Positions 31,140-47,860 of a stretch of 64,000 nucleotides of DNA are shown here, one piece after another. The DNA is from Streptomyces sp. NBC_01276 (GTDB lineage Bacteria > Actinomycetota > Actinomycetes > Streptomycetales > Streptomycetaceae): positions 7,252,501 through 7,316,500 of the forward strand of contig NZ_CP108442.1 of NCBI RefSeq assembly GCF_041435355.1, in the 5' to 3' direction. The notes under the pieces were generated by a model that worked only from the letters and a program-made list of their open reading frames with translations, was not told the DNA's origin and made no database searches. Every line of letters starts with the position of its first letter. Position 1 is the stretch's first letter. A program made the translations under genes and the position numbers.

Positions 31140-31897
31140 GAGGCGCAGGTGTCGATCATGGTGGTGAGCACGGCCCTCTCGCCGTCGGTGACGGTCAGCC
31201 CGTAGTGGGACTTGACGGTGGTCCAGGCGCGCCCGTACTGGCACCAGCTCGACTTGTCCGTCGGCTGCCACAGCTCGGGGCTCTGGTCGCCCTTGGAGCG
31301 GTTGGAGGACGCCGAGACCGCCAGCAGCTGCGGCCGTGTCAGGTCGTTGGCGAAGGCCTTGCGCCGGGCCGCGTCCCAGGCGGCGGCGCCCGAGCGCCAG
31401 GCCTCGGCGAGCGGCACCATGTGGTCGATGTCCAGCTTCGCGGCCTCGGTGACGGTCGCCCCGTCGTAGAGGCTCTTCCAGCGGCCCGTCAGGGCCCGGC
31501 ACTCGGCGTCCTGCGTGACGTCGGTGCCGTCCCGCTTGAGGACCACCTCGCGGGTGTCGCACTTGTTGCCCTGCTCCGCCCAGTGCGTGAACTTGTCCCG
31601 GCTGTACCCGGCCATCGTGCCGGGCTTGCCCGTCGTCAGCGCCGCCAGCCGGGTCCGGGCGACGGCCGCGCTGACCATCCCGGGCAGCACGTCCGCGGGG
31701 GCCGGCTGTCCGGCGGCCCCCGAGGGCGCCGGCGGGGCGGAGCTCGCGCTCCCGGTCGCGCCGGTGGCCGGGCCCGGTCCGGGCGTACCCCCGGTCTTGC
31801 CGTCCCCGGAGGACCCCGGCCCACCGCATCCGCTGATACCGAGCAGCACGGCCGCCACTGCCACCGCCGCGCCGCGCACACCTGACTGACGACCCAT
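31136..31897 (-). CDS. Secreted HNH endonuclease lipoprotein (DUF1524/GmrSD-C type)
   Basis: A 253-residue exported nuclease-like protein. The signal ends in a lipobox (LLGISGCGG), so it is probably a surface lipoprotein. After a Pro/Ala linker, the domain carries CDTREVVLKRD, the HNH core LDIDHMVPLAEAW and a C-terminal SASSNRSKGD motif with nearby Cys residues. This matches the HNH fold of the GmrSD C-terminal (DUF1524) family seen in many secreted actinobacterial proteins, likely acting on DNA outside the cell. The ATG 31897 has a GGGGTGGG site upstream. A small gene overlaps its stop. Confidence 0.9.
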   Translation of the reverse strand: MGRQSGVRGAAVAVAAVLLGISGCGGPGSSGDGKTGGTPGPGPATGATGSASSAPPAPSGAAGQPAPADVLPGMVSAAVARTRLAALTTGKPGTMAGYSRDKFTHWAEQGNKCDTREVVLKRDGTDVTQDAECRALTGRWKSLYDGATVTEAAKLDIDHMVPLAEAWRSGAAAWDAARRKAFANDLTRPQLLAVSASSNRSKGDQSPELWQPTDKSSWCQYGRAWTTVKSHYGLTVTDGERAVLTTMIDTCAS

Positions 31898-32222
31898 GAC
31901 CCACCCCGACGAGACTCCGCACTGACCCGGGAAGACTACCCATAACCGGACAACCAACCCCGCACCGGGCGGTGCGGAGTGTCCGGGCGGTCGAACTACG
32001 CCGTGTCCTCGGGACCACCTCGCCGACCGGATGGGGCCGGCGAGGAGAGGCGGCGTGGTGCCGGCCCTCCGGATGAGGAAGTCGAGGCGCATAGAGGGTT
32101 CCGCTGCCACCCGGCAGCAACGGTTATGGAACTCCGGCAGCCGGAGCGGGAGCAGGGGCGGCCGCCGCTCGACCGCTCGCACCGGTCGATGACGTCGGCC
32201 GAGGCGGGCCGGGCCGATGAGG
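31898..32222. other. Intergenic stretch upstream of the HNH gene
   Basis: 325 bases without a supportable gene. A CCGCACC/GGTGCGG hairpin is at 31960-31977. Short frames here lack codon bias. Third-position GC is lower than in the neighbours, which fits non-coding DNA. Confidence 0.5.
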
Positions 32223-32870
32223 CTAGGTGCGCAGGGTCCGCCATTCGCGGGGGTGCAGCGGGACCGGCGGCAGGCGCAGCAGGTCCGTCAGCGGGGCTCC
32301 CTGTTCCGCCCAGCGGCGCAGCAGCTCGCGGTCGATCCACCGCACGCCGTGCCGGTCGCCCCACGCCTTGGCGTCCTGGGTGAGGCCGCCGTTGGTGACC
32401 ACCAGGGCGTGGTCGGCCCGGTGCGCCGGACCCGCCGCGCCCATCGCCTCGGCCATCACCGAGGTGCCGACGGTGGCTCCGGCGGCGCCCGCGCGGGTGT
32501 GCCGGGCGCGGACCAGGATGCGGCCGTGCCGCGCGTCCTCGCCGATCACCCCGGCGGCCCCCCGTGCGCCCCAGCCGTCCCGGACCAGCAGGTCGCGCAC
32601 CGCGTACTCGAACTCCTCGTGGCCCATGGCGTCGAACTCCGCCAGGGTGATCCGCAGCGCAGCGGGGCGCGCGGCCCGGTTCAGCGTGCGCCATCCCGCG
32701 ACGGCCACCGCCGCGAGGGCCGCCGCCAGGGCCACGGCCGGGCCGTGCGCGGCGGCGAACCCGGTCACGGCCATCAGGGCGACGAGCGCCAGGCCCCCGG
32801 CGGTGATCCGCCCCCCGGGCCCCCGGGTGCGGCCGCGCGCCCGTACGCGGTGGTAGCCGTCCCGTGCCAT
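32223..32870 (-). CDS. Membrane-anchored Mrr-like restriction endonuclease-fold protein
   Basis: A 215-residue protein with a basic N-terminus, two hydrophobic helices (about residues 24-62) and a C-terminal Mrr-type domain: EFDAMGHEEFEYAVRDLLVR, then GEDARHGRILVRARHT, then DHALVVTNGGLTQDAKAWGD and a final GVRWIDRELLRRW. In active Mrr enzymes the core has G-x-D followed by QxK; here the Asp position is changed (GAAGVIG) and QxK reads RAR. It may therefore be catalytically dead or use other residues. ATG 32870 follows GGAGGGGG. It lies between an HNH nuclease gene and the MoxR/VWA cassette. Confidence 0.85.
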   Translation of the reverse strand: MARDGYHRVRARGRTRGPGGRITAGGLALVALMAVTGFAAAHGPAVALAAALAAVAVAGWRTLNRAARPAALRITLAEFDAMGHEEFEYAVRDLLVRDGWGARGAAGVIGEDARHGRILVRARHTRAGAAGATVGTSVMAEAMGAAGPAHRADHALVVTNGGLTQDAKAWGDRHGVRWIDRELLRRWAEQGAPLTDLLRLPPVPLHPREWRTLRT

Positions 32871-33353
32871 CGAGCCCCCTCCGCTCAGGGGCCGGCCGCG
32901 GGTGCGGGGCCCTCCGGGAAGAGTGTGGGCAGCACGGGGTCCAGAAAGGGTGGAATCGTCATGGACGTCGAGTCGAGGGCTCAGATCCGGCCGCACCGGA
33001 AGTCGGCCCGGCCCCCGCGCACGGGCGGCCGAAGCCCCCACGGCCGGGCCGAACGCCCGAAGGACTTGGCCGAAAACAGGGAGCGCATCGCGCCCCGCCC
33101 GCGCCGGAGCCGCCTCCCGCGCCGGATCCCGGGCCCACGCCCCCGTGTGCCGCGCCGCGGACGCGTGAGGCCAGGGGGACGTACGGGGGCGGGCCCCGCC
33201 GCCGTCCCGGACGCCGGCGGCGTCACCCGCCCGTGGTGGAGGCGGACGGGTGGCCCCGGGCGGCGGGGTCCGCTCCCGCCCCGCCCGCCGACGGAGTCGA
33301 CGCTCCCTGCGCGATGGCGGACGGGGCCGGCGGGGTCTGCGCCGCCGGGGCGG
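32871..33353. other. Long intergenic stretch downstream of the SWIM gene
   Basis: 483 bases without a gene I can support, between the Mrr-like and SWIM genes. A plus-strand ATG at 32961 follows an AAAGGG site, but the reading frame is Arg/Pro-rich and runs on into the antisense of the SWIM gene. A minus-strand frame (33223-33356) is Ala/Pro-rich with good third-position GC and continues from the SWIM gene in another frame. Confidence 0.45.
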
Positions 33354-35357
33354 TCAGGTCCAGGAGGCGGTGACCAGGGAGCGCCGGGCCGCCTTCAGGT
33401 GGGTGGACGCCGCCAGCCAGGCCCAGGCGTAGCCGTCCGACGAGGGATCGGTGAGCCGGCCGAAGACGTCCCTGGGGCGCCGGTCCGCCTCGGCCACGAG
33501 AGCAGCCGTCAGGTCCGCCGCCGCCCCGAATCCGGCCCGCCGCAGGGGACCGTACGCGGTCAGCGGCTGCGGTCCCCGCGCGGTTTCGGCCACCGCGCGG
33601 CGGCCTCCCGCGACGCCCGTCTCCAGCAGCCGCCCCACCCGCCACAGCGGCGCGTCGGCCAACGGGTCCGGACCCGGAACCACCGCTTCCGCCGCGGCCG
33701 AGGGGGCCTCGCCCGGGAAGTGGCTTCCCTGGAGCCGGTCGTAGCCCAGATCGGCCCGGTCGTGCCACTCCGGCGGCAGCCGCAGCGTGTACGCGGCCCC
33801 GGGCACCGGCCCCACCGCCAGGGGGCTCAGCGTCGCCGCGCGGTCCGGGTCCGGACGGCCCAGGACGCGTACCGCCAGCCCCGGATACCCGGCCAGGCGG
33901 CGCAGGTTGGCGGTGTGGGCCAGCTCCGGGTGCGGATGTGCGGGACGCAGCCGCAGCAACGGGGCGTCCGCGCGGCGTTCCCGTACGAGCAGGTGCTCCC
34001 CGGCCGCGCCGACGACCTCGACGTCGCAGCCCAGCAGGCCCGGTTCGGCCTCCTCCCGGGAGAGCAGCTCGGCGACGGCTTCCGCCGCCGGGCGCGCGAA
34101 CAGCGCGGCCAGCGGCTCCGCCGTCCACGGCGTCACCGGCATGGGGGTGGCCCGCACCCCGCGCCCGGCGCCGAGCCGCCCGTCGGCGGAGACCGTCGCG
34201 CCGACGATGCGCAGGCCCGCCCGGGACAGCCCGGCGTGGTCGAGGGCCCCTCCGCCGAGAGCGACGGAGGCGGCCCCCGCACCCCGGGCGCGGGCGAGGC
34301 CGCCGGGCCGGACGTCCGACAGGGAGTAGGCGGAGCCGTCCGCGCCCAGCAGGTGGGTGACCACGCCCCCGTAACCCGTGGCGCTCAGCACCGGCTCCCG
34401 GCACAGGCCGTACACCCGCAGGCTGCCCCCGGCCGTGTAGGCGCGGCGGCCCCCGCCGGTCAGCCCCGGACCGCCGGTGCCGGACGCCAGCAGCGCGGCG
34501 GAGGTCAGCAGTTCGCGGAAGGCGGCGGCGAGGTCGCCGAGGCGCTGCGCCGCGTGCCGTTCCCGCGCGGCGCGCAGACCCCGTACGACGCGCAGCGCGG
34601 CGGCCTCGGCCTGCGGCAGCCCGGCCACGCGTGCGGTGTGCGCGGCGCGCAGCAGTTCGGCCTGGGCCACCGCCCCGGCGGCGGTGACCCCGGCGGCCAG
34701 CGCCTCGGCCCCGACCGCCCACAACCCGGCCCCGGCCGCCCTCTGAGCAGCCGTCACCTGAGCCGTCACCCCGTCGCCGGTCCGGTCGGCGGCGCGCCCG
34801 GCCGCTGCCGCGCGGGGCGCGGTGCCGGGGGCGGCGGCCTCTCCGGGCAAGGCCCCCGGCTCCCCGTCCGCCTCCGCGCGGGCCGCCGCGCCCGCCCCGC
34901 CACGGGAACCCGCCTCCGCGGCCGGGCGGGGTCCGGCCCCCGCGCCCGCCTCCGGGACGGAACCGGCGGCCGGGACGGGCTCCGGCCCCGCGCCCGCCTC
35001 CGGGAGGGAACCGGCGGCCGCGTCGGGCTCCGGTTCCGCGCCCCCGTACGGCTCCTGCTCCGGGTCCGCCAAGGGGCTCGCGCCCAGGGCGGCCGCGCGG
35101 TGGAGGCAGCGGGGGGCCAGCAGGCAGGCGCAGACGGCCTGGGCCGGATCCGTGACCGCCCCCGACGGGCCCGGTCTCAGCGTGACCACCGCGTCCTCGC
35201 CGAAGCGGACCGTGACCGTGCCGTCCGGCCCGGCCTCGGCCCCCGCCCCGCACGCCTCGACGGCGGCGTCGAGCCGCTTGCGCAGCCGGGCGCTGAGGCC
35301 TTCCACCGCCTCCGCCAGCACCTCGGGGGCGACGGGGGGCAACAGGGTGCTGCTCAT
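33354..35357 (-). CDS. SWIM zinc-finger protein (YehQ-like)
   Basis: A 667-residue protein with a SWIM motif CACLLAPRCLH (Cys 76, 78, 84, His 86) near the N-terminus, which should bind zinc and DNA or protein. Residues about 90-185 form an Ala/Glu/Pro-rich linker with near-repeats (SLPEAGAGPEPVPAAG, SVPEAGAGAG). The remaining 450 residues are helical and carry no motif I know. The ATG overlaps the stop of the VWA fusion gene by ATGA, making it the last gene of the cassette. By content it corresponds to E. coli YehQ, also uncharacterised. The role is unknown. Confidence 0.9.
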   Translation of the reverse strand: MSSTLLPPVAPEVLAEAVEGLSARLRKRLDAAVEACGAGAEAGPDGTVTVRFGEDAVVTLRPGPSGAVTDPAQAVCACLLAPRCLHRAAALGASPLADPEQEPYGGAEPEPDAAAGSLPEAGAGPEPVPAAGSVPEAGAGAGPRPAAEAGSRGGAGAAARAEADGEPGALPGEAAAPGTAPRAAAAGRAADRTGDGVTAQVTAAQRAAGAGLWAVGAEALAAGVTAAGAVAQAELLRAAHTARVAGLPQAEAAALRVVRGLRAARERHAAQRLGDLAAAFRELLTSAALLASGTGGPGLTGGGRRAYTAGGSLRVYGLCREPVLSATGYGGVVTHLLGADGSAYSLSDVRPGGLARARGAGAASVALGGGALDHAGLSRAGLRIVGATVSADGRLGAGRGVRATPMPVTPWTAEPLAALFARPAAEAVAELLSREEAEPGLLGCDVEVVGAAGEHLLVRERRADAPLLRLRPAHPHPELAHTANLRRLAGYPGLAVRVLGRPDPDRAATLSPLAVGPVPGAAYTLRLPPEWHDRADLGYDRLQGSHFPGEAPSAAAEAVVPGPDPLADAPLWRVGRLLETGVAGGRRAVAETARGPQPLTAYGPLRRAGFGAAADLTAALVAEADRRPRDVFGRLTDPSSDGYAWAWLAASTHLKAARRSLVTASWT

Positions 35358-38300
35358 CGGGGTTCTCCACGGAGTCGGTCGCCCACCCAGCGGGCGAGGG
35401 CGAGGGGGCTGAGGGCGGCCACCGGCATGCCGGCCGCCACGAGTTGCCGCGCCACCGGCACCGAGTACCGGGGCGCGCCCGCGTCGTCGAGCGCGGCGCA
35501 GCCCAGCAGATGCGCGCCCGAGGAGGCCAGGGCGCGCACCTCCCCGAGCAGGCCCCCGAGCGGGGCGCCCTCCTCGAAGTCGCTGACCACCACGACCAGC
35601 GTGCGGCTCGGCACCGTGATCAGCGTGCGCGCGTGCGCGAGCCCCGCCGCGATGTGCGTACCGCCGCCGACCCGGACCCCCAGCAGCAGCGACAGCGGAT
35701 CGTCCACGCGGTCCGTGAGGTCGGCGACCTCGGTGGAGAACGCGAGGAAGTGCGTCGACAGGGTCGGGACACCGCCCAGCACCGCCGCCGTCAGCGCCGA
35801 CCAGATCACCGAGGCCTCCATCGACCCGGACACGTCGACCACCAGGATCAGCCGCCAGTCCGCCTCGCGGGAGACGCGCGTGCTGAACACCGGCCGCTCC
35901 GGGACCACCACCACCCGGCCGTCGTCCAGCCGCCGGGTGTGCGCGAGGTTGGCCCGCAGGGTGCGCGCCAGGTCGAGCGGGCCGCCCGGGCGGCGGGTCG
36001 GGCGCGGGGTGGCCAGCCCGGACAGCGCCGGCCGCAGCCGGGTGGCGAGTTCCCTGGCCAGCTCGTCGACCAGGCGCCGTACCAGGGGTCGCAGCCGGGC
36101 GAGTTGCTGCTCCGGCATGCCGCCCGCGAGCGAGAGCACCGAGGTCAGCAGCTCCACGGAAGGGCGTACGGATCCCGGGTCGAGCGTCGCGAGCACGTCG
36201 GAGCGGCCCGCGTCGGCCGCGTCGGCGAGCACTTCCTCCCGCACGTCGGAGCCGAACAGCGCCTCCAGCTCCGCCGCCCACTCCCGGGCGGTCGGGAAGG
36301 ACGGGTCGTCCCCGCCGCCGGTACCGTCGCGGCCCACGTCGCCGGAGCCCTCACCACGCCCGGCCCCGTACAGCTCGTCCAGCGCCCGTGCGTAGCGGCC
36401 CGCGCCGGCCGGGAGCCGGTCGCGCTGCCGGCCGAGCAGCAGCCGCCACCGGTCGGCGGGCGCCAGGCGGCGGCCGTCCGCCGGCTCCGGCCGGGCGGGC
36501 GCGACCCCGTCCGCCCGGCCGTCCGCCCCGCCGTCCGGGACGTCGGCGTCCGCCGGACGCGCCGGTACCGGAAGGTCCTTGAGCGCCGCGAGCCCGGCGG
36601 CGTCGGCGGCGGCCCACAGCGCGAGCAGCGCGGGCGGCGCGTCCAGCGACAGGTCGACCCGGTCGCCGAGCCGCTCCGTGACGGTCGCCAGCAGCCGCTC
36701 CCGCGCCGCGGGCGCGAGCACGTCGAACCCGGCGCGAAGCGCCGGCAGCCGCTCCAGGAACGCCTCGTCGGAAAGGGCGTCCACCCGGTCCAGCAGCGGG
36801 GTCAGGGCCGCCGGAGAGGCGTCCAGCAGCGGTCCGGCGGCGCTGAGCAGGCCGGTGAGCCGCCGGGCCAGGGCCCGCCGGCCGTCGGGGCCCGCCGCGC
36901 CGTCGACCCAGGCGGCGGCGCGCTCGCCGAGCCCGGCCGCCGGGTCCAGGTCCAGCAGCACCCGTACGGCCAGGGCCGCGCCCCGCATCAACGGGCTCGC
37001 GCCGGAGGCCAGTTCCGCAAGGGCGGCGTCCATGCGCAACCCCAGGCGTCGGACGGCGGCCCGGTCGGCGAGGGCCACCAGGGTGCCCGCGTCGGCGGGG
37101 TCGTCGCTTCCGGCGAGGCCGGGCAGGGCCCGCACGGCGGCGTCGAGCAGCTCACCGGCCAGTGCGCCGGACCGGTCCCGGGCCGCGGCGGAGGCGCCGG
37201 GCAGGTGGCCGCGGCGCAGCCCCTCCAACAGGTCGACGGCGTCGAGGAGTTCCGCCGGAGCGGCACTCTCCGGCAGGACCGCCGCCAGTTCGTCCAGTCG
37301 TACGTCGACCAGCGCGGGCAGGTCGCAGCGCGCGGCGGCGGCCAGCCCGGTCAGCACCTGCGCCGCCGTCGGGCCGCCCTCGGCCGCCTCGCGGCGCGCC
37401 AGCTCGCGCAGCGTCCCCGAGGCCGCCTGGGCGGCGGTGACGCCGCGGACCCCCGCCAGGTCCAGCCGGGCCGGGACGGACGGCGTCCAGGACAGCCGCC
37501 ACTTGCTCCCCAGGGCCGTGCCGTCGCCGGTGGCGGCCACGCCGACGGGCTCGCCGTAGGAGGCCCCGCAGACCAGCAGCCGCTGCAGCAGCACCTCGCG
37601 GCGCCCGTCGAGCTCGGAACGCAGCGGGTCGAGGCGGACCTCCCGGGCGGCCGGGTCCTCGGGCGACGGCAGCCGCAGCGCGGCCAGCTCCGCCTCCACC
37701 GAGGGCCCGAGCCCGGAGCGCGGGGCGTGCGGGGTGGTCCGGCCGCGGCCCGTTCCCACCAGTACGGCCTCCAGGGCGCGGGCCAGCGCCCGGCCCCGGC
37801 CGAGGGGTTCGCCGTGCCCGAGCACCGTCTGGACGGCCTCCAGGATCTCCCCCCGGCCGGGCGCGGGCAGCCCGCGCAGCACCGACAGGTCGCAGGCGAG
37901 CCGCAGGGTCTCGGCGGCCTCCCCGGTGCCGGCGGTGTGCCCGGCGCGGCGCAGCTCCCGGCACACGCGCGTGACGGCGACCGAGGCGGCCTCCCGCAGG
38001 CGTTCGGGGTCGCCGCCCGCTTCGAGCACGGCCTGTTGCCAGAGCGGGTCCCGGATGCCGGCGGGGTATCCGGAGCGGGAGTCGAGCAGGTCGTGGGAGT
38101 ACGCCACGAACGAGGTGACGACCTCCTCGGCATCACCCTTCGGTCCCGCCTCCGCGACGGCCTCCGCGACGGCCTCCGCGACGGCCTCCGCGTCGGCGTC
38201 GTCGGCCGCGGAGCGGCACGCCGTCAGGGCCGGGGCGTGGAAGGCGCCGATCACGGCGGCCACCCGGCGGCCACCGGTGGCAGCGGCGGCGATCACGCGC

Positions 38301-38953
38301 CGCATGTGGGCCTCGCGGGCCAGGTCGACCGGGGGCACGGCGCGCGCGTCGGTCCGCAGCGCCCAGCCGACGCCGAGCGCGGCGCGGCGCACGGCCTCCG
38401 GGGTGCACCCGGGCGCCAGCACCTCCACGGCCCGGTCCCACAGGTCGTCCCCCTCGCGCCCGCTCCCGGCCGCGACGAGCCCGTCGGCGAACCGGGCCGG
38501 CCCCGCCCCGGCGGACCCGTCGGCCGCGGCCCCCCGGTCCGCCCCGGGGCCGGTCCCGTCGGCAGGGGCGGGACCCGTCGGAGCGGGGTCACCCGACCAG
38601 CCCCGGTCGGCGAGCGGGAGGTCGCAGCAGACGACCTCCACGCCCCGGCTCCGCGCCCAGCGGAGCGCCGCCAGTTCGGGGGAGAAGTCCGCGAACGGGT
38701 AGAAGGCCAGGCGGCCCTCCCGCCCCAGCCCGGCCAGGGCCACCGGCGCGACCGTCTCCGGGTCGGCCAGGTGGGCCAGCCACGGCTGGAACTCGGCGGG
38801 GAGCTCCACGCAGACGACCTCCGCCCCCGCCTCCTCCAGCAGGGCCGGGACCACCGCCGCGAGCGCGGGACTGTGGTGGCGTACGCCCAGCAGGTAGGGC
38901 TCGCGCGACGCGGCGAGCGCCGCCAGCGCCTCCCGCGGATCGGTGACCGTCAA
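35354..38953 (-). CDS. DUF5682 and VWA (CoxE-like) fusion protein
   Basis: A 1,199-residue protein joining two families usually encoded separately. Residues about 1-815 are DUF5682 (opening YLLGVRHHSPALAAVVPALL, then VVCVELPAEFQPWL), which resembles TraB/ChaN-like folds. A Pro/Ala/Asp linker leads to a VWA protein from about residue 835 (RWRLLLGRQRDRL), with the metal-binding MIDAS site DVSGSM at 1040, GGGTHIAAG and VVSDFEEG. VWA proteins of this type partner with MoxR ATPases. The start is a TTG that overlaps the MoxR stop (TTGA), with GGGAG seven bases upstream. An EAVA repeat lies near residue 260. Confidence 0.9.
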   Translation of the reverse strand: MTVTDPREALAALAASREPYLLGVRHHSPALAAVVPALLEEAGAEVVCVELPAEFQPWLAHLADPETVAPVALAGLGREGRLAFYPFADFSPELAALRWARSRGVEVVCCDLPLADRGWSGDPAPTGPAPADGTGPGADRGAAADGSAGAGPARFADGLVAAGSGREGDDLWDRAVEVLAPGCTPEAVRRAALGVGWALRTDARAVPPVDLAREAHMRRVIAAAATGGRRVAAVIGAFHAPALTACRSAADDADAEAVAEAVAEAVAEAGPKGDAEEVVTSFVAYSHDLLDSRSGYPAGIRDPLWQQAVLEAGGDPERLREAASVAVTRVCRELRRAGHTAGTGEAAETLRLACDLSVLRGLPAPGRGEILEAVQTVLGHGEPLGRGRALARALEAVLVGTGRGRTTPHAPRSGLGPSVEAELAALRLPSPEDPAAREVRLDPLRSELDGRREVLLQRLLVCGASYGEPVGVAATGDGTALGSKWRLSWTPSVPARLDLAGVRGVTAAQAASGTLRELARREAAEGGPTAAQVLTGLAAAARCDLPALVDVRLDELAAVLPESAAPAELLDAVDLLEGLRRGHLPGASAAARDRSGALAGELLDAAVRALPGLAGSDDPADAGTLVALADRAAVRRLGLRMDAALAELASGASPLMRGAALAVRVLLDLDPAAGLGERAAAWVDGAAGPDGRRALARRLTGLLSAAGPLLDASPAALTPLLDRVDALSDEAFLERLPALRAGFDVLAPAARERLLATVTERLGDRVDLSLDAPPALLALWAAADAAGLAALKDLPVPARPADADVPDGGADGRADGVAPARPEPADGRRLAPADRWRLLLGRQRDRLPAGAGRYARALDELYGAGRGEGSGDVGRDGTGGGDDPSFPTAREWAAELEALFGSDVREEVLADAADAGRSDVLATLDPGSVRPSVELLTSVLSLAGGMPEQQLARLRPLVRRLVDELARELATRLRPALSGLATPRPTRRPGGPLDLARTLRANLAHTRRLDDGRVVVVPERPVFSTRVSREADWRLILVVDVSGSMEASVIWSALTAAVLGGVPTLSTHFLAFSTEVADLTDRVDDPLSLLLGVRVGGGTHIAAGLAHARTLITVPSRTLVVVVSDFEEGAPLGGLLGEVRALASSGAHLLGCAALDDAGAPRYSVPVARQLVAAGMPVAALSPLALARWVGDRLRGEPR
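38148..38195. repeat. In-frame 12-bp tandem repeat, four copies
   Basis: Four copies of GCCTCCGCGACG (the last with one change) encode an EAVA repeat in the DUF5682 part. Length can vary by slippage without shifting frame. Confidence 0.85.
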
Positions 38954-40104
38954 CGCAGGCTCCCGCGCAGGTCCCAGAGCCGCCGCCACATCGCCGAGCC
39001 GTCCTCGGCCCGGCGGCGGACCGGGCCGTCCCAGTAGCCCAGCAGCCGTCCGTGGTCGGCCGGGTCGTCCTTGCGCACCACACCCAGCAGGTGTCCCGGC
39101 AGCAGGTCCAGCACGTCGCCGCCCGGCAGGTACGCGGCCGCGACCCCCAGCGAGGCCGCCACCTGCACGGCCTCGGCCGTGGACATCACCGTGCCGGGCC
39201 GCTCCACGTCCCAGCCCTCGGCGCTGCGCCCGGAGCGCAGGTCCCGGAAGACGGTGACGAGGGCGTCGAGCACGGAGTCGTCCACCCCGAAGGAAGCCCC
39301 GGCGCGCTGCACGGCGGCGACGGCCTGGCGGCGGACCAGGGTGGCCTCGGCGTCCGGGTCCGCGATCGGCGCGACCGTCTCGAAGTTGAAGCGGCGCTTG
39401 AGCGCGGCGGACATCTCCGAGACGCCCCGGTCCCTCAGGTTGGCGGTGGCGATGACCGTGAACCCGGGGGCCGCGCTGACCGACGAGTCCTCGGTGGCGG
39501 TCAGTTCCGGCACGCTGACGCGCCGGTCGGACAGGATCGACACCAGGGCGTCCTGCACCTCGGGCAGGCAGCGGGTGATCTCCTCGACCCGCGCCACCCG
39601 TCCGGTGCGCATCGCGGAGAGCACCGGGGAGTCGACCAGGGCCTGCGGGGTCGGGCCCTGGGCGAGGAGGAGCGCGTAGTTCCATCCGTAGCGGAAGGCG
39701 TCCTCGGTGGTGCCCGCGGTGCCCTGCACGGTCAGGGCGCTGGTGCCGCAGACGGCGGCGGACAGCAGCTCGGACAGCATCGACTTGGCGGTGCCCGGCT
39801 CGCCGGTGAGCAGCAGTCCGCGCTCTCCGGCCAGGGTCACCACGCACCGTTCCACCAGGGCGCGTTCGCCGACGAACTTCGGCGCGATCACCAGCTTGGA
39901 CGGCAGCCCGGCGCGCCGCTTGGGCAGGGCCAGCTCGGTCCCCTCGCTGCCGCACACGAAGGTGACCACCGCGCGCGGCGTCAGGGCCCAGCCGGGCGGG
40001 CGGGGGCCGGTGTCCTGGGCGGCGAGAAAGGCGAGTTCGGCGGCGTACCGCTCCTCGGCGGGCATGACCTGCCGGGCGGGAGCGGGCTGTTCGGTGACGG
40101 TCAT
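38950..40104 (-). CDS. MoxR-type AAA+ ATPase (YehL-like)
   Basis: A 384-residue AAA+ ATPase. Walker A is GEPGTAKS (101-108), the Walker B region reads RVARVEEITRC (Glu 174/175), sensor 1 is in VIATANLRDRG (Asn 222) and an arginine finger is likely in ALKRRFNFE. MoxR ATPases form hexamers that remodel VWA-containing client proteins, as RavA does with ViaA; here the VWA partner is encoded immediately downstream, coupled by a TTGA overlap. ATG 40104 is the start. The same gene order in E. coli is yehL followed by yehM and yehP. Client and trigger are unknown. Confidence 0.93.
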   Translation of the reverse strand: MTVTEQPAPARQVMPAEERYAAELAFLAAQDTGPRPPGWALTPRAVVTFVCGSEGTELALPKRRAGLPSKLVIAPKFVGERALVERCVVTLAGERGLLLTGEPGTAKSMLSELLSAAVCGTSALTVQGTAGTTEDAFRYGWNYALLLAQGPTPQALVDSPVLSAMRTGRVARVEEITRCLPEVQDALVSILSDRRVSVPELTATEDSSVSAAPGFTVIATANLRDRGVSEMSAALKRRFNFETVAPIADPDAEATLVRRQAVAAVQRAGASFGVDDSVLDALVTVFRDLRSGRSAEGWDVERPGTVMSTAEAVQVAASLGVAAAYLPGGDVLDLLPGHLLGVVRKDDPADHGRLLGYWDGPVRRRAEDGSAMWRRLWDLRGSLR

Positions 40105-40212
40105 CGGTTCCTCGGGTCCTGTGGGCTTGGGGAATTCTCGAAGGAAAGACGTGGAGAGAGCGGAGGGGGCGCGGGGGCGCGTCAGGTCGCCCCCGCACCC
40201 GCTCCGGCGGGA

Positions 40213-43200
40213 TCAGCGGCGGCGGCCCGCCGTGCGCTTCACCCTCAGCTGCTCGAAGCGCGGGACGTCGCCCTCCCGGACCCGTCCCCATGCCCGCCGG
40301 TAGAGGTCGGCGGCCGGCTCGGTGGGCACGAGCACGCCCAGCACCGGGCTGCCGCCCGGGGCCGCCGGGTACATCGACAGCTTCCACTGCTCCACCGGCA
40401 GCACCGGCGAACCGGGCTCGGCCCAGCCCCCGGGCAGGAACAGGGTGCGTCCCGCCCGGGTGCGGCCGGCCTGCACCACCAGGTCGGTGGCGGCCAGTTC
40501 GGCCCGCGCGGCCTTGATCCGGGCCGGCTTCCAGCCCGTCCACCGCGCCGTGTTGCGGTCGGTCGGGTCGGGCATGGCGAGCAGCATCAGGTACAGGGCG
40601 GCGGCGTCGGCGCCCAGCCCGCACGCGGCCTCCGTCTCCGCCACCAGCTCGGGCACGCTGCGGGACGGGTCCTGGGTCCACCAGGTGCCGTCCTTGGCGA
40701 CCGCACCCGCCACCGGCGCGCCGGGATCGGCGAGCAGGGCCGCGAACGCCGGGTCGTGGGCCAGCCGCAGCGCCGTCTCGGCCGGCGAGGGCTGCTGGTC
40801 GACGCCGCGCAGCAGCGGCAGGTACGGGTCCGAACCGGTGGAGTCCAGCAGCGCCGTGCGCAGCGCGGGCCGCGGCCGGTCGTCGTGGGTGGCCAGGACC
40901 ACCGCCCCGTAACGCTCGTACCCCTCGCCGGTCTCGGTCGGGGTCCCGGCCGCGGTCCGGAAGTCGGTAAGGGAGGTGTAGTGCCCGGCGGCCAGCAGCA
41001 GCCCGGGGGCCGCCAGCCGCTGCCGGACCGCCGTGAGCGCGGGCGGCAGGCAGGCCCGTACGGGGTGGCCCGCGGGCAGGCGGTGCGCCAGCCAGGCCGT
41101 CAGGGCCATCGCCCCGCTCAGCGCCGACGCGTCGAAGCACCGGCCGACGGGGACGACGGGTTCCGCGTGGTCCCCCCTGACCGCCCACTCGACATCGGCG
41201 GACAGCACCGGGGACGACGCGGGCCCGAGGAGTTCGGGCAGCGCCCGGTGCGCCGGCCAGGAGGTGCGCACGTCCCGCGAGGCCTCCGCGAGCACCCACT
41301 CGGGAACCGGCGTACGACGGCCCACGCGCTGGTTCCACACGCGCGCGGCGGCCGCCGCGTCCGGGCCGTCGGTCCACAGCCGGGCCGGTTCGGCGGGCAG
41401 CAGCGCCGCGACGAGCTCGCGCCGCACGCCGAAGCCGAGTTCCTTCAGGTCGTCACGGGCGTGCGCGGCGTCGGTGGCCTTGACCCCGAGGACGGCGCGC
41501 AGCTCGGCGGAGAGGAACGCGCGCTCGTACGAGTCCAGCCGCGGCAGGCCCGCCAGCACCAGCGCGGCCAGCGCCGCGGACACCCCGGTCAGCCGGGCGA
41601 ACTCCTCGGCGGCGGACGCGAACCACGGCGCGGGGCCCCGGCGGTCGGCCTCGTCGAGGAACGCGGCCAGCCAGCCGGCGGCCCGCTCCGGGTCGCCGAC
41701 GGTCGAGCCCGCCCCGACCTGGGCGTAGGGGGCCGGTACGGCGAAGGCGCCGGACGGGTCGTGCAGCAGCCCGTCGAACTCCTGGCCGTCGGGCAGCACC
41801 TCGCTGTGGTCGGTCACGGCGAGCAGCGCGCCGCCGCCGAGCGGCAGTACGGAGCGGTGGCGCGGGTTGCGCGCACGTCCGCCGGAGCCCACCAGCAGCG
41901 CCGAGTCCAGCCGGACCCGTACCCGGCGCCACCGTGCGGCGCAGCCCTCGGCGGAGTCCACGCCCAGCGCGCCGGCCTCGCCGAGCACCCGGCGCAGCGC
42001 CGCCCGCTGCTCGTCGGTGGTACCGGCGACCGCCATCCGGTAGGCCACGGCCGCGGGCTGCTCCAGGAACGGACCGGTCCACGGGAACGCCGAGTTCGCC
42101 AGCTTCGGCACGTCGAGGTGGAGCCGGCCGGGCACCCCCTCCGCGGCGGTGTCGCCGGCCGCCTTGGCCAGCGTCCGCAGGAAGCGGTACGTGGCGTCGC
42201 TCTCCCCGCCGTGGCGGTAGTATCCGTTGCCCACCAGGCCGTCCAGGGCGCCGTCCAGGAGGTGGTCGGCCGGGCCCCGGTCCGCCGGAGCGCTGCGCGG
42301 GGCCACCGGGCCCCGGGTCAGGTCGTCCGAGACCCTGGCCAGGGCCCGCTGCTGGACCAGTGCGCCGCGGACGGCCGCGGTCACGCCGCCGAGCAGCGCG
42401 GGCGCGGCGACGCCCGGCAGGGCGGCCGCCACCAGAGCGGGCACGTCCGCGCCCTTCCCGGCCTCGGCGACGGTCTTGAGCAGCGCCCCGGCGGTGGCCG
42501 TGTCCACCGCGCGCAGCGCCGCCGAACCCTCGGGGTCCCGGGCGCGCAGGCAGTACCAGTAGGGCAGCGGCGGCAGTTCCGCGCCGTGCGTGGAGTAGGC
42601 CGCACTGTTGTGGTCGGCGCTCATCCGGGAGACGGCCGCGCCCTCGGGGTCGGTGAGGGTCAGCGTCCGCCAGTCGCTGGACACGGCGCGCGGCCGGTCG
42701 TCGCCGGGCAGGGTCACGGCGTGGTGCGGGATCCGGGAGCCCTCGCCCAGGGTCACCGACCGTCCGGCGTTGTCGGAGCCGTGCCAGCCCTGCCCGGGGA
42801 CGCGGACCGCACGCCAGCCGAGCAGTCCGTCCACGGGCGCGCCGAGCACGGAGCCCTCGACGGTGGGGGTGGGGCGCAGCCAGTTCTGGCCGACGTTGTC
42901 GGGCAGGGTGCTGCCGCTCGGGTGGTCGCGCAGGGCGTCGGCGAGGAAGCCGGGCAGGGAACGCCGCCCGTGCAGCCCGGTCGTGGGGTCGTACTCGGCC
43001 CAGCCGGCCTCGCCCCCCGCCTCGCCCCGCTCCCAGACCCAGTACGAGGTGCCGTCGCTGATCACCGGCCGCTCGACGGGCAGTTTGCTGTCGCCGCGGT
43101 GCAGGACGCCGCCGCCCGTGGCGCGGCCGCCGCCCGGCAGGGGCAGGGTGACGTGCTCGGAGCGCACCGACCAGTAGTTCGCGGAGGAGTCCAGGGTCAG

Positions 43201-45183
43201 GACGTCGCCCGGGGAGCTGAGCCAGTAGCCCTGCACGGGGCCGTTGTACGGGACCCAGAACACCAGCAGGTCGCCGTCCGTGTAGTGGAAGCCCAGCTGG
43301 TGCTGGCCGCCGGCGGCGGGGATCCGCAGGTCGTGCGTCAGCACGGTGGAGTCGGCTTCGATGACGCGCACCTGCGCGGAGTTGGCGACGATGACGTACG
43401 GCCAGGCGTCCATGACGGTCAGGTGCCGCCGGTTGCCGGCGGGCGACAGCGCGGTGACGGCCTCTTCCCAGGTGGGCCAGACGAGTTCCTCGAACAGGCC
43501 GCCGCGCAGGGTGCGGGCGAGGATCTCGCCCAGGTCGGCGGCGGCGGCCCGGGAGACCTCCTGCGGGGCGAGCGCGAGCGCCTCCGCGGGGAGCCAGGTC
43601 AGCCGCCGGATGGCCTCGGGCAGGTCCGGCAGGGCGGCCGCCGTGGAGGCCGCGGCCACCTGGGCGACCCAGTCGGCGAGCAGCGCGCGGCTGCCGGGGC
43701 ATTCGGCCAGGCGCCGCACGGTTCCGCGACCGCCGGATCCGTTTCCGTTGAAGCGGTCCAGGGTGCGCAGGAAGGCGGGCCGCAGCCGTTCGTCGGCACA
43801 CAGCGCGCTCAGGTCGCGCGGCTCGGGGGACTGGGCCCACTGGTCCAGGCCCATGAAGCCCTGCCAGGCGTTGCCGGGATCGGCGACCGGCAGGCCGAGG
43901 GAGAGCAGGAGGTCGATGAGGTTCACGTCCTGGAGGGCCAGGCGCAGGCCGTTCTCGCGTCCCGGCAGGGCCAGTTCGGTGCGCAGCCTTTCGGCGCAGC
44001 GCGTGACGAGCGAGAGGAGGGCGGGCAGCGTCGCCGGGATGCCCCAGCCCGCGTGGCGGGCCGTGTGGAAGCGCTCCAGCCAGCCGGCCGTGCCGTCGGG
44101 GCAACGCTCGGCCTCGGGCAGGGTGCCGTCGGCGAGTCCGGCGGTGGCGCCCGATTCCTCCAGCACCTCCAGCCACAGCGCGGCCAGTTCACCGGCCTCG
44201 CCGCCGCCGCTGCCGGGCATCATCGCGAGCAGGGTTCCGCGGACCGACGGAACGCGCCGGGCCAGGGCGACCAGCGCGGTGCGGTGGGACTTCCACCAGC
44301 CGGTCGCGGCCCGCAGGGTGGCCGGGAGCGGCAGCAGTTCGGCGAGGTACTCCTGCTCGGGTTCGCCGCCGGTCAGCCCGGCGGCGCGGGCGAGGCGGCG
44401 CAGCTCGGTGGTGGCCTGCGCCGAGGGCGGGAGCCCGCCCGCGGTGCGGCGCACGCACAGGCGGCGGAAGCGGTCGAAGGCCTCGGCGGGGGAGACCCGG
44501 GCCGAGAGCTCCTTGCCGTATCCGGTGAGGACCTTCACCGGCAGGGCACCGGCCAGGGCGAATTCGAGGAAGACGGCGTCGAGGCGGTCCTCGTCGACGG
44601 TCAGGCCGTAGCCGGCCTCGCTGGTCCGGGCCCGGCCGAACAGCTGGGCGGCGTACGTGGTGTTCTCGACGCCGAGGAAGACGCGCGCGGCCTGCTCGTA
44701 GAAGACGGGCAGGAAGTGCGGGACGGCGAGGGCGAGCCGGTCGGCGAGCTCGTGGCAGGCGTCGAGGGCGGCCTTGGGCTTGGTCTTGGCCTGCCGCGCG
44801 AGCCGGTCCAGCTCGGGGACCACGGCGAGGGCGTGGTGGCCGTCCTCGGGGTGGTGCACCAGCACCCATTCGGGGAAGCCGAGCGCCTGGCGCCGGCCGA
44901 GACCGACGACGGACGGCTCGCCCTGCGGCACGAGGCCGAGGAAGCCGGCGGCGAGGTCCTCGGCGGCGCCCAGCTCCGCGGCGGCGAGCCGGACGACGAC
45001 CCGGTCGTCCCCGAGCGCGGGGTGACGGTAGGTCCGGGCGGTCAGCGGGACGGCGGCGGGCCCGGCACCGGTGGTGCCGACGGGCAGGACGGCTCCGGCG
45101 GCCAGCAGTGCGGCGTTCGCGCCCTCGCCGCCCTCGCCGCCCGCGGTGGTGTCAGTGGTGCTCATAGTCTCGGTGGTGCTCAT
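40213..45183 (-). CDS. Giant protein of the MoxR/VWA cassette, unknown function
   Basis: A 1,656-residue protein, the largest in the window. I recognise no catalytic motif, signal peptide or membrane helix. It starts MSTTETMSTTDTTAGGEGGE and is then a long mixed helical and beta protein. A central section is rich in Trp/Tyr and Asp/Gly turns (about residues 580-900, for example HYTDGDLLVFWVPYNGP and NYWSVRSEHVTLPLPGGGR), which could be a beta-propeller-like fold. Its ATG overlaps the DUF4132 gene stop, so the two are coupled. It may be a scaffold or sensor, replacing the long part of the E. coli YehI protein. Codon bias is uniform. Confidence 0.88.
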   Translation of the reverse strand: MSTTETMSTTDTTAGGEGGEGANAALLAAGAVLPVGTTGAGPAAVPLTARTYRHPALGDDRVVVRLAAAELGAAEDLAAGFLGLVPQGEPSVVGLGRRQALGFPEWVLVHHPEDGHHALAVVPELDRLARQAKTKPKAALDACHELADRLALAVPHFLPVFYEQAARVFLGVENTTYAAQLFGRARTSEAGYGLTVDEDRLDAVFLEFALAGALPVKVLTGYGKELSARVSPAEAFDRFRRLCVRRTAGGLPPSAQATTELRRLARAAGLTGGEPEQEYLAELLPLPATLRAATGWWKSHRTALVALARRVPSVRGTLLAMMPGSGGGEAGELAALWLEVLEESGATAGLADGTLPEAERCPDGTAGWLERFHTARHAGWGIPATLPALLSLVTRCAERLRTELALPGRENGLRLALQDVNLIDLLLSLGLPVADPGNAWQGFMGLDQWAQSPEPRDLSALCADERLRPAFLRTLDRFNGNGSGGRGTVRRLAECPGSRALLADWVAQVAAASTAAALPDLPEAIRRLTWLPAEALALAPQEVSRAAAADLGEILARTLRGGLFEELVWPTWEEAVTALSPAGNRRHLTVMDAWPYVIVANSAQVRVIEADSTVLTHDLRIPAAGGQHQLGFHYTDGDLLVFWVPYNGPVQGYWLSSPGDVLTLDSSANYWSVRSEHVTLPLPGGGRATGGGVLHRGDSKLPVERPVISDGTSYWVWERGEAGGEAGWAEYDPTTGLHGRRSLPGFLADALRDHPSGSTLPDNVGQNWLRPTPTVEGSVLGAPVDGLLGWRAVRVPGQGWHGSDNAGRSVTLGEGSRIPHHAVTLPGDDRPRAVSSDWRTLTLTDPEGAAVSRMSADHNSAAYSTHGAELPPLPYWYCLRARDPEGSAALRAVDTATAGALLKTVAEAGKGADVPALVAAALPGVAAPALLGGVTAAVRGALVQQRALARVSDDLTRGPVAPRSAPADRGPADHLLDGALDGLVGNGYYRHGGESDATYRFLRTLAKAAGDTAAEGVPGRLHLDVPKLANSAFPWTGPFLEQPAAVAYRMAVAGTTDEQRAALRRVLGEAGALGVDSAEGCAARWRRVRVRLDSALLVGSGGRARNPRHRSVLPLGGGALLAVTDHSEVLPDGQEFDGLLHDPSGAFAVPAPYAQVGAGSTVGDPERAAGWLAAFLDEADRRGPAPWFASAAEEFARLTGVSAALAALVLAGLPRLDSYERAFLSAELRAVLGVKATDAAHARDDLKELGFGVRRELVAALLPAEPARLWTDGPDAAAAARVWNQRVGRRTPVPEWVLAEASRDVRTSWPAHRALPELLGPASSPVLSADVEWAVRGDHAEPVVPVGRCFDASALSGAMALTAWLAHRLPAGHPVRACLPPALTAVRQRLAAPGLLLAAGHYTSLTDFRTAAGTPTETGEGYERYGAVVLATHDDRPRPALRTALLDSTGSDPYLPLLRGVDQQPSPAETALRLAHDPAFAALLADPGAPVAGAVAKDGTWWTQDPSRSVPELVAETEAACGLGADAAALYLMLLAMPDPTDRNTARWTGWKPARIKAARAELAATDLVVQAGRTRAGRTLFLPGGWAEPGSPVLPVEQWKLSMYPAAPGGSPVLGVLVPTEPAADLYRRAWGRVREGDVPRFEQLRVKRTAGRRR

Positions 45184-46037
45184 GCGTCCCCGCCCTCCTC
45201 GATCTTGCGCCCGGCGTACAGCGCCGCGGCCATCCGCATCCCCTCGGACCAGGCCACCGGTCCGACCTCGCCGAGCCGTACGGCCCGGCCCTCCTCGTCG
45301 TGCCAGTTCAGCGGCCCGGTCTCCGACTCGTCCTCCCAGTAGGGCTCGCCGATCCAGACGGCCGCCTCCACCGCCCGGCCCGAGTCGCGCACCTTGCAGG
45401 TCGCGTAGCCGCCCGTGACCCGGTAGCCGAGGCCGGTGGCACGGGCGGCGAGGCTGAAGCGGGAGGGGAAGGTGCCGCCCGCGTAGTCCCGTACCTCGGT
45501 GGCGGCGGGGGAGAGGTCCGCGGGCTTCGTCCAGGTCGCCCGGTGGATCTGCTCGACCCGCTGGGTGATGTCCAGTTCGGCCGCGAACTCCCGTACGTCG
45601 TCCAGGTCGGGCAGCAGCACCGGGTGCGGCAGGGTCACCGTGAGCGGGCGCAGGCGTACGGTCTCGCCGTCGAGGTTGACCACCTTGAGCTCCCCCTCGG
45701 CGGTGGCGTCGCGCAGGAAGCCCACCTCGTCGGGGTCGCTGTCGGGGACGACGGCCAGGTCGCGCAGCGCGGCCTGCCAGGCCTCGTCGGGCCACACCCG
45801 GGCGAGGAGGGCGGTCGGCACCGGCAGGGAGGACACCATCCAGGTGTCCACCTGGGCGGCGCAGGAGGCCTCGTGGCGGTCGAGCCACTCGGCGAGCCGG
45901 CGCAGCCGGTCCACCTCGGGGTGGTCGCGCAACGCCTTCGGGACCGTCTTCAACTGCCGCCCCGCGGGCCGACGCACCGCGACCCGCCCCTCCACGAGGG
46001 CGATCTCGTACCCCTCGTCCAACGCCAGCCAAGCCAT
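45180..46037 (-). CDS. DUF4132 family protein (YehI C-terminal-like)
   Basis: A 285-residue protein resembling the DUF4132 domain found at the end of E. coli YehI (MolR): GRQLKTVPKALRDHPEVDRL, LAEWLDRHEASC, DTWMVSSLPVPTALLARVW and a C-terminal GYRVTGGYATCKVRDSG. No enzymatic motif is visible. It is the first gene of the cassette; ATG 46037 is preferred over upstream codons because GGAGG lies about 11 bases before it and the conserved part starts there. A terminator of the MFS gene separates it from the next upstream gene. Family assignment is from memory of the pattern and should be searched. Confidence 0.8.
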   Translation of the reverse strand: MAWLALDEGYEIALVEGRVAVRRPAGRQLKTVPKALRDHPEVDRLRRLAEWLDRHEASCAAQVDTWMVSSLPVPTALLARVWPDEAWQAALRDLAVVPDSDPDEVGFLRDATAEGELKVVNLDGETVRLRPLTVTLPHPVLLPDLDDVREFAAELDITQRVEQIHRATWTKPADLSPAATEVRDYAGGTFPSRFSLAARATGLGYRVTGGYATCKVRDSGRAVEAAVWIGEPYWEDESETGPLNWHDEEGRAVRLGEVGPVAWSEGMRMAAALYAGRKIEEGGDA

Positions 46038-46193
46038 CAGCCCGTGCCCCTCCGCCTGTCCGAAAATGGTCTTGCGCAGCCCGGTGCAAGGCGCCAACGC
46101 CTGCTGAGCTGCGGTATGTCGGGAGACTAGCGAGCCCCACTGACAACGCCGTCCGCAGGGCTGCCCGAAGCGCGCGGAGTGCGGACACGACAA

Positions 46194-46222
46194 GGCCCCC
46201 CGGTCCGTGGGACCGGGGGGCC
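46194..46222 (-). terminator. Terminator after the MFS gene
   Basis: A perfect 13-bp stem, GGCCCCCCGGTCC with GGACCGGGGGGCC, and a 3-base loop, starting about 20 bases beyond the MFS stop. Confidence 0.8.
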
Positions 46223-46244
46223 GTGTGCGGGAGGTGGCGGGGGA

Positions 46245-47801
46245 TCAGACGGCGTCGGCGGTGTCCGAGACCTTCTCCGAGACCTTCTCCGCGTCCTTCT
46301 CCGCGTCCTTCTGCGGGGCCTCCGCAGCGGCGGGGGCGCCGCCCGGGGCGGCCGTCGCGGACACCCGGGGCCCGTGGCCGGAACGCAGGCCGAGCCAGCT
46401 GATCACGGCGACCAGCGCGAAGGCTCCGGCCCCGATCCAGAAGGTGAGGGTGAACCCGGATTCGGCCGGCAGGGCCGGAACGCCCGCAGGGAGGTGCTCG
46501 ATCGTCTTGGACGCCAGGATCGTGGTGACGATGGCGCTGCCGATCGCGCTGCCCGTGGAGCGGGAGATCGAGTTGATGCCGTTGGCGATGCCGCTCTGGT
46601 GGTGCGGGACGCTCGACATGATCACGGCGGGCATGGCGGCGTAGCCGAAGCTCACGGCCGCGCCGACGACCAGGCCGGCGCCGATGACCGAGAAGGTGTG
46701 GCCGTGGTCGAGGGCCAGCCAGCCGAACCCGACGGCGCCGAGGGCGGCGGCGAGGCCGAGCGCGATGCGCGGACCGCGGTGGCGGACCAGCTGGCCGCCG
46801 ACGGGGGAGGCGAGCAGCGAGACGATCGCGCCGGGCAGCAGGAACTCGACGGAGGCGCGCAGGATGGACGCGTCGAAGCCGTAGCCGGTGAGCTTCTCGG
46901 GCATCTGGACGAGGTAGGAGACGCCCAGGAAGTTCGCGAACATGCCGAAGCCGACGAGGATGCCGGCCAGGTTGGCCATGAGCACCGGACGGTGGACGAA
47001 CATCTTCATGTCGACGAGGGGTTCGCTCACCTTGCGCTCCACCAGGACCCAGACGGCGGTCATCACGGCGGCGCCGGCGAAGCTGCCCAGCGTACGGGCG
47101 GAGGACCAACCCCACTCGTGGCCCTGCGAGATCGGGAGCAGGAGGAGCAGCAGGGCGATGCCCAGGGTCAGCGCGCCCAGGAAGTCGGTGCGCCCGCCGG
47201 TCTTGTGGCGGGTGGCCGGGACCAGGAAGACGACGGCCAGCAGGGCCAGCGTGGCGAAGCCGGTCGCCATCCAGAAGGCGTTGCGGTAGTCGGCGTCGGT
47301 ACCGGAGGTCAGCAGGCCGGTCGCGACGAGCGCCAGGCCGCTGCCGAACGCCAGGGTGCCGCTGACCAGGGCCATCGCGCCGGGCAGCTTCTGCGGGCGG
47401 ACCTCCTCGCGCAGGACGGACAGGGCCAGCGGGAAGATCGCGGTGGCGGCGCCCTGGAGCACCCGGCCCAGGATCAGCAGCGGCAGCGAGGTCGCCAGCG
47501 CGGCCACCACGGAGCCCGCGACCATGACGCCGAGGACGGCCACCAGGGTGGGCTTCTTGCCGTGCTGGTCGCCGAAGCGGCCGAGCAGCGGGGTGAAGAC
47601 GGCGGCGGACAGCAGGGTGGCGGTGGTCACCCAGCTGACGTTGGCGGTGGAGGTGCCGAGGTCGTTGCGGATCAGGCCCAGGATCGGTACGGGCAGGGTC
47701 TGCATCATCGACACGACCATGGCGGCGAGGCTCAGGGCGAAGACGATGACCGTCTCGTTCCTGTTCCTCGCTTCGGCGGGGGCGGATGCGGCGGAGCTCA
47801 T
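46245..47801 (-). CDS. MFS drug-exporter (DHA2, 14-TM type)
   Basis: A 518-residue major facilitator protein with about 14 hydrophobic helices. Motif A appears as GRFGDQHGKKPTL and motif C region as LVSGTLAFGSGLALV. It should export a toxic compound using the proton gradient. The C-terminal tail (about 40 residues) is charged and repetitive (KDAEKDAEKVSEKVSDT) and probably cytoplasmic. ATG 47801 is used; a TTG three codons upstream is possible. It is divergent from a MarR gene with palindromes between, so substrate-dependent induction by that repressor is likely. Confidence 0.94.
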   Translation of the reverse strand: MSSAASAPAEARNRNETVIVFALSLAAMVVSMMQTLPVPILGLIRNDLGTSTANVSWVTTATLLSAAVFTPLLGRFGDQHGKKPTLVAVLGVMVAGSVVAALATSLPLLILGRVLQGAATAIFPLALSVLREEVRPQKLPGAMALVSGTLAFGSGLALVATGLLTSGTDADYRNAFWMATGFATLALLAVVFLVPATRHKTGGRTDFLGALTLGIALLLLLLPISQGHEWGWSSARTLGSFAGAAVMTAVWVLVERKVSEPLVDMKMFVHRPVLMANLAGILVGFGMFANFLGVSYLVQMPEKLTGYGFDASILRASVEFLLPGAIVSLLASPVGGQLVRHRGPRIALGLAAALGAVGFGWLALDHGHTFSVIGAGLVVGAAVSFGYAAMPAVIMSSVPHHQSGIANGINSISRSTGSAIGSAIVTTILASKTIEHLPAGVPALPAESGFTLTFWIGAGAFALVAVISWLGLRSGHGPRVSATAAPGGAPAAAEAPQKDAEKDAEKVSEKVSDTADAV

Positions 47802-47840
47802 GACTGGCAAGACCTTCTTACTGCTTCAGGACGCAGATGT

Positions 47841-47860
47841 TTGATGTCATCAAGTACTTG
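47841..47860. promoter_or_regulatory. Candidate MarR operators (left pair)
   Basis: TTGATG-T-CATCAA (47841-47853) overlaps a perfect CAAGTACTTG palindrome (47851-47860). They lie about 40 bases upstream of the MFS start in an AT-rich stretch. MarR repressors bind such short inverted repeats. Confidence 0.5.

Follow-up and report, generated by a model that had tools for sequence, protein, structure and literature searches.

The window examined here is a 64,000-nucleotide stretch of the 9.37-Mb genome of Streptomyces sp. NBC_01276 (NZ_CP108442.1, 7,252,501 to 7,316,500), and our subject is a cassette of five genes, all on its minus strand (33354-46037), built around a MoxR AAA+ ATPase and a DUF5682-VWA fusion protein. 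We propose, with a probability of about 0.6, that this cassette encodes a DNA-damage-inducible, ATP-driven remodeling machine, in which a MoxR-VWA remodeler is combined with a probable hydrolase domain and with WGR-DUF4132, propeller and SWIM components that serve as recruiters. The promoter motif and the genes are as follows (window positions; lengths in amino acids, aa; values in brackets are E-values):

46124-46145, minus strand: motif TGTCAG-10N-TA-3N-T, a promoter of the PafBC/RecA-NDp type, ending 86 bp ahead of the DUF4132 start codon
46037-45180, minus strand: gene A, small DUF4132 protein, 285 aa, ATG start (Pfam PF13569, 1e-26)
45183-40213, minus strand: gene B, 1,656-aa protein, ATG start, with a predicted beta-propeller at about residues 563-889
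40104-38950, minus strand: gene C, YehL-subfamily MoxR AAA+ ATPase, 384 aa, ATG start (AAA_5, 6.9e-36), P-loop GEPGTAKS
38953-35354, minus strand: gene D, DUF5682-VWA_CoxE fusion, 1,199 aa, TTG start (Pfam DUF5682, 9e-206; VWA_CoxE, 1.1e-62)
35357-33354, minus strand: gene E, YehQ-type SWIM zinc-finger protein, 667 aa, ATG start, motif CxCx5CxH

All five genes were retrieved by a codon-usage gene caller. Four-base overlaps join the DUF4132 and 1,656-aa genes (ATGA), the MoxR and DUF5682 genes (TTGA) and the DUF5682 and SWIM genes (ATGA), while a 108-bp gap separates the 1,656-aa gene from the MoxR gene. The preliminary description of this DNA, made from the sequence alone, had reported five packed leftward genes with overlaps at three junctions, and both its coordinates and its gene set are confirmed.

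A PafBC-type motif upstream of the cassette and of repair-type genes

Alignment of the upstream DNA of the window with that of four relatives displays a conserved stretch that resembles RecA-NDp promoters. For PafBC, a direction-dependent motif TGTC(A/G)G-10N-TA-3N-T has been published (PMC8151990), and the operon strand of the window has an exact instance of it, in the correct direction, at 46145-46124: TGTCAGTGGGGCTCGCTAGTCT. A longer form, TGTCRGTG-8N-TA-3N-T, has a single match in the 64-kb window (0 expected from 100 shuffles) and 35 matches in the whole genome, versus 0 for the reversed pattern. When 30 of these 35 sites were inspected, a gene start was seen nearby downstream in 29, and 20 of those 29 genes, picked by hand, were sent to Pfam. 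Twelve of the 20 are of replication or repair types, namely RecA, UvrB, RuvC, PolA, DnaX-like, RadA-like, MgsA, two uracil-DNA glycosylases, AlkZ-like, UvrD-like and Exo_endo_phos proteins, with some of these names being our reading of the Pfam domains; the other eight comprise an HD phosphohydrolase, a WGR-propeller protein, the SWIM protein of a second cassette in the same genome and five proteins with no family at 1e-5. Since the motif precedes recA, uvrB, ruvC, polA and other repair-type genes, it marks a likely DNA-damage regulon in this genome. Two adjacent WYL-domain genes lie 2 kb beyond a Pup ligase gene, the position expected of pafB and pafC, and are candidates for a PafBC-type regulator. 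In Streptomyces, a RecA-NDp promoter has been described ahead of recA and of SCO6735, which is UV-inducible (PMC5087735).

Control of the operon by LexA was considered and rejected: GAACN4GTTC with up to one mismatch has 17 matches in 64 kb versus 14.0 expected, and none within 46038-46244. A sigma-70 consensus scan of 32800-47900 returned no promoter-like site. Taken by themselves, the genomic motif sites (L152-L181 and five more) likely outline a DNA-damage regulon, in which several proteins with no Pfam match share the motif. Three of the encoded proteins (L162, L166 and L168) are similar by eye, and another (L173) combines WGR with a PQQ-type propeller behind its PafBC-type motif.

Conservation of the gene set and of the motif

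Our close sample consisted of 61 genomes, i.e. that of the window and 60 relatives, from which 20 stretches were fetched. The MoxR protein has a match in 53 of the 61, at 73% identity or more in 21 of these (own genome counted). In clade A, the genes for the DUF4132, 1,656-aa, MoxR and DUF5682-VWA proteins occur in the same order in 11/11 fetched relatives, and the SWIM gene is found as an open reading frame (ORF) in ten of them and as a fragment match in the eleventh; this retention of order and of the SWIM ORF indicates a grouping beyond chance. Three further arrangements were recognized. The B type (L042-L045) has the order DUF4132 (one to three copies)-MoxR-DUF5682-VWA-SWIM, with the SWIM gene of L044 called just as a short ORF. 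The C type (L046-L048) has the order cysteine-rich protein-VWA-MoxR-DUF5682, with the cysteine-rich protein split into two calls in L047 and L048. The D type, to which the second copy in the window genome (L049) and L050 belong, has MoxR-DUF5682-VWA with a SWIM gene facing away. The cysteine-rich protein of the C type was entertained as a variant SWIM protein on account of a Cys/His cluster visible by eye; this was not upheld, as the SWIM pattern is unmatched, and Pfam returned nothing for the proteins of L046 and L047.

A wider scan, with one genome per species, yielded 208 YehL-type MoxR relatives, of which the best 80 were analyzed, although some contigs end close to the gene (e.g. L085). 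According to the record titles, these loci occur in Pseudomonadota, Actinomycetota, Bacillota, Bacteroidota, Planctomycetota, Verrucomicrobiota, Chloroflexota, Spirochaetota and other phyla. Among the best 80 loci, DUF5682 is present in 70, VWA in 66, DUF4132 in 40, SWIM in 40 and the 1,656-aa family in 15, all 15 of which also bear DUF4132. Twelve more of the 80 have an upstream SWIM protein by motif, and the single one of these sent to Pfam matched SWIM. WGR-DUF4132 fusions adjoin the MoxR core in some relatives, and in nine of the 80 loci MoxR stands alone. Eight loci with a YehL-type MoxR in which no DUF5682 or VWA was found (L061, L065, L066, L068, L069, L076, L081 and L084) deserve a separate mention: the upstream ORF of L068 has PCMT methyltransferase and T2SSE secretion-ATPase domains, and a related ORF occurs in seven more MoxR-only loci. 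Across 148 genomes of the class, DUF5682 was detected in 31 and DUF4132 in 19 (18 over the cut-off), and 17 genomes have the two together (Fisher p = 4e-12, without correction for kinship), at most 12 kb apart in 12 of these 17. The earlier suggestion of a co-conserved, multi-subunit MoxR-VWA cassette is supported, and the MoxR-DUF5682-VWA core is found in many phyla.

The motif accompanies this gene set within Actinomycetota. Of 19 actinobacterial loci, 14 have an exact copy of it in the 400 bp ahead of the cassette, versus 0.01 expected from shuffles; this count takes in the window and the second copy of its genome and omits L044 and L045, whose first gene lies at or close to the edge of the locus. 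As a control, the same stretch ahead of the other called genes of these 19 loci contains it in 3 of 245 cases, two being divergent D-type SWIM genes; in the second cassette of the window genome it precedes the SWIM gene. In further actinobacterial loci the motif was found in 20/28 (by type 8/13, 4/6 and 8/9), where C-type loci were scored from the gene ahead of VWA and over a wider stretch (to +600), a post hoc choice made with the motif positions already seen. This count omits L088 (edge), L054 and L057, in which the first gene is cut, and L112, which lacked the motif in a count of 29 loci; one of its members, L089, is apparently the record already counted as L033. With the alternative choice of first gene (the first labeled cassette gene, which in the C type is VWA), the motif is found in 13 of the 29 loci. 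Judged from these upstream sequences, a DNA-damage link of the cassette is strongly indicated within Actinomycetota. In Deinococcus, the DUF4132 protein DRA0166 shows a mitomycin- and irrE-dependent rise (PMC8533742). MoxR1 and MoxR2 drop in a pafBC mutant of M. smegmatis (PMC5656591), a finding that we do not use as support.

The component proteins and a putative hydrolase domain

The window MoxR protein is 46% identical to YehL over 371 columns. In the fusion protein, the VWA domain occupies residues 969-1190 of 1,199 by Pfam, and its metal ion-dependent adhesion site is complete, with D1040, S1042, S1044, T1099 and D1125 invariant in 12/12 aligned proteins, as the expectation of a metal-dependent VWA required; NTP-driven remodeling is likewise supported as the likely core activity. 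The zinc SWIM assignment likewise stands: CxCx5CxH is invariant in 11/11 aligned proteins and hhalign relates the protein to the YehQ-type family (E = 1.6e-7, probability 94%), with the window protein itself having no Pfam SWIM match. Neither it nor the 1,656-aa protein has a Pfam family up to an E-value of 5, and neither the SWIM profile nor the 1,656-aa protein has sequence relatives in the PDB up to an E-value of 1. The 285-aa DUF4132 protein is a homologue of the C-terminal region of YehI/MolR-family proteins (hhalign against the YehI-type family, E = 1.9e-4, probability 48%), and the YehI-type profile retrieved from the PDB designed alphaRep proteins alone, at 0.014 and 0.55. The 1,656-aa protein was compared with both the YehI family and the small DUF4132 protein, and homology was set aside, as neither comparison was significant. 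Many of its relatives carry the NCBI name 'DNA-binding protein', which is a database label only.

The N-terminal DUF5682 domain has the near-invariant residues H26, E50, R213 and GxxH239, in the motif order and spacing (GxxH - E - R - GxxH) of the TraB/TIKI superfamily. In the first GxxH the His is near-invariant, and the Gly lies outside the columns conserved in at least 80%. From the 2His/2Glu catalytic set, two His residues and a single Glu can be aligned, with the second catalytic Glu not placed; E93 is a further invariant residue. Against the TraB profile the domain scores twice as high as controls, with a probability of 15-35%. The TraB yardstick (PF01963) matched in 0/60 genomes of the class and in 8/14 genomes of named loci, 13 of the 22 matches being used; ChaN (PF04187), sought as a second TIKI yardstick, had 0 matches in 60 genomes. 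A search of the PDB with the domain profile gave no significant match (best 0.41). A fold search with the DUF5682 model showed no TIKI row among the matches listed, which is uninformative and carries no weight because the VWA domain filled the lists. With moderate confidence, based on profile and motif, we regard the DUF5682 N-domain as resembling TraB/TIKI-superfamily hydrolases and as a putative hydrolase. Unlike these hydrolases, it sits within a long helical protein that is coupled to an AAA+ ATPase.

Relationship to the yeh genes of E. coli

In E. coli K-12 the order is yehF (WGR), yehH (pseudogene), yehI (DUF4132), yehK, yehL (MoxR), yehM (DUF5682; Pfam, 2.4e-98), yehP (VWA_CoxE) and yehQ (SWIM). 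The equation of the cassette with yehI-yehL-yehM-yehP-yehQ in the preliminary description is correct gene by gene: the same five families occur in the same order as in the window, with the 1,656-aa gene inserted. However, YehM and YehP are separate proteins, whereas the window has DUF5682 and VWA fused, and YehI is a protein of 1,210 aa, whereas the DUF4132 protein of the window has 285 aa and stands beside the extra propeller protein. The full set is thus present in E. coli. As YehL is one of seven named MoxR subfamilies (PMC3893208), the system cannot be called undescribed in all its components. A search of the open-licence PMC literature found no description of the cassette, of DUF5682 or of its regulation, and no role for YehL; vWA-MoxR-VMAP genes near CRISPR loci have been described. 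What is new here is the DUF5682-VWA fusion, the propeller protein, the DNA-damage-type promoter and the hydrolase-like site.

Comparison with other MoxR-VWA systems

The cassette shares the pairing of MoxR and VWA with the metal insertase NorQ-NorD, and NorD is among the VWA structural matches in a fold search with the DUF5682-VWA model. To our knowledge, DUF5682, SWIM and DUF4132 are not part of NorQ-NorD. In that system, where nitric oxide reductase is the client, NorQ acts by remodeling a linker of NorD (PMC13036017). An alternative is a maturation chaperone, comparable to NorQD, CoxDE or RavA-ViaA: a dedicated enzyme would receive its metal or cofactor from MoxR-VWA, or be assembled by it, and the DUF5682 N-domain would bind the metal or cofactor rather than cut. 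This alternative is in line with the NorD match, with the mostly enzymatic or other protein complexes on which the listed MoxR-VWA pairs act (PMC7159879; PMC13036017) and with the first linking of molR to molybdate use (a title cited in PMC8533742). Yet the commonest partners are DUF5682, VWA and SWIM, with no enzyme common to most loci in the neighbor clusters (nine members sent to Pfam), and co-regulation with recA, uvrB and others would need a repair enzyme as client. We think this alternative rather unlikely.

The MoxR-vWA ternary conflict systems (PMC7159879) also have a MoxR and VWA core and a large third protein, and the P-loop GEPGTAKS of the window MoxR fits the GXXXTAKS form of two of their subsystems. 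On this basis the cassette might be kin to them and act as a threshold switch that kills or arrests the cell upon DNA damage or phage attack; the preliminary description had mentioned proposals that related MoxR-VWA modules are conflict systems. Tandem DUF4132 copies at some loci, a weak bpMoxR match below the cut-off (5.4e-4) and copies on plasmids (40 of 72,556 records, 30 of them typed non-mobilizable) are points in its favor. Against this, the five proteins have no Pfam match to VMAP, iSTAND or FtsH, where the Pfam coverage of these models is unchecked and B is without any Pfam match, and no C-terminal effector was found beyond the VWA. The gene set is retained over phyla, and a single one of 50,697 phage records gave a match. 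Because there is neither a PADLOC family match (best E = 0.043) nor a Pfam match to a published third component, this idea is without direct support and appears improbable to us. The strongest of the new evidence favors a DNA-damage response over a conflict system.

A parallel to the fusion protein is seen in jumbo phages, in which MoxR is accompanied by a metallopeptidase-vWA fusion (PMC7824862), likewise with a hydrolase domain N-terminal to the VWA partner. The phage domain is a metallopeptidase that has been proposed to act in virion assembly, whereas the window has a TraB/TIKI-like domain, encoded in a bacterial operon of the damage type.

Proposed mechanism

For the DNA-damage-inducible remodeling machine we envisage the following course. 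Upon DNA damage, the activator PafBC would switch on the operon through the motif seen upstream. By homology, a hexamer of the YehL-type MoxR would engage the VWA of the DUF5682-VWA protein and use ATP to pull or twist it, in the manner of NorQ on NorD, and the TraB/TIKI-like N-domain, if a hydrolase as its moderate profile and motif support suggests, would act on the remodeled client. Recruitment to this client may fall to the SWIM protein, to the propeller protein B and to DUF4132, which some relatives have fused to WGR. This step is the weakest; as client we guess at proteins caught on damaged DNA, or at the DNA itself. Both halves of this mechanism have precedent, in the jumbo-phage metallopeptidase-vWA with MoxR (PMC7824862) and in NorQ acting on NorD (PMC13036017). 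Should the hydrolase reading hold, the bacterial damage response would gain an AAA+ driven enzyme of a novel kind; the DNA-damage promoter and the probable active site make this anonymous operon directly testable.

Several observations limit this reading. Outside Actinomycetota the motif is present in 0/36 loci, and SOS-type boxes are not enriched there; the case for a DNA-damage link therefore comes from Actinomycetota. An initial search had found the M. smegmatis motif not conserved in S. venezuelae (PMC9380542). Further, the inclusion of oxidative-stress genes in PafBC regulons (PMC8223512) would suit a general stress chaperone under a genuine promoter, with a client that has no tie to DNA. 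The WGR-DUF4132 fusions beside the MoxR core and the share of DNA repair and replication types among the motif-bearing genes sent to Pfam (12/20) speak against such a chaperone, which we consider very improbable.

A more far-reaching version of the remodeling machine, which is speculative and on balance unlikely, holds that YehL-type cassettes are DNA-damage-induced AAA+ proteases of novel construction, comprising a MoxR hexamer, a VWA adaptor and a TIKI-type peptidase, that are guided to damaged DNA by WGR-DUF4132, SWIM and propeller proteins and clear protein blocks or crosslinks. In eukaryotes, SPRTN and p97 clear protein blocks and crosslinks, offering a parallel to such a protease.

Neighboring genes and other loci

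Upstream of the cassette, at a distance of 207 bp, lies a gene for a transporter of the major facilitator superfamily (47801-46245). Directly downstream (window 31136-32870) are two genes of type IV restriction kinds. One encodes an Mrr-type restriction endonuclease (2.9e-12), the other a GmrSD_C protein (4e-7) that has no match in the fetched clade-A stretches. Among the other loci, a 0.9-Mb linear plasmid of Streptomyces atratus (L182) has the five-gene cassette beside an IS110 transposase, with the fifth gene annotated as hypothetical, and the cassette of Paenibacillus tengchongensis (L110) is minimal, accompanied by SWIM and HEAT-repeat proteins upstream and by a DesK-type two-component system. 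Finally, the SchA/CurD-like, ABM and cyclase domains encoded at 61673-62770 of the window probably mark the border of an aromatic polyketide cluster.

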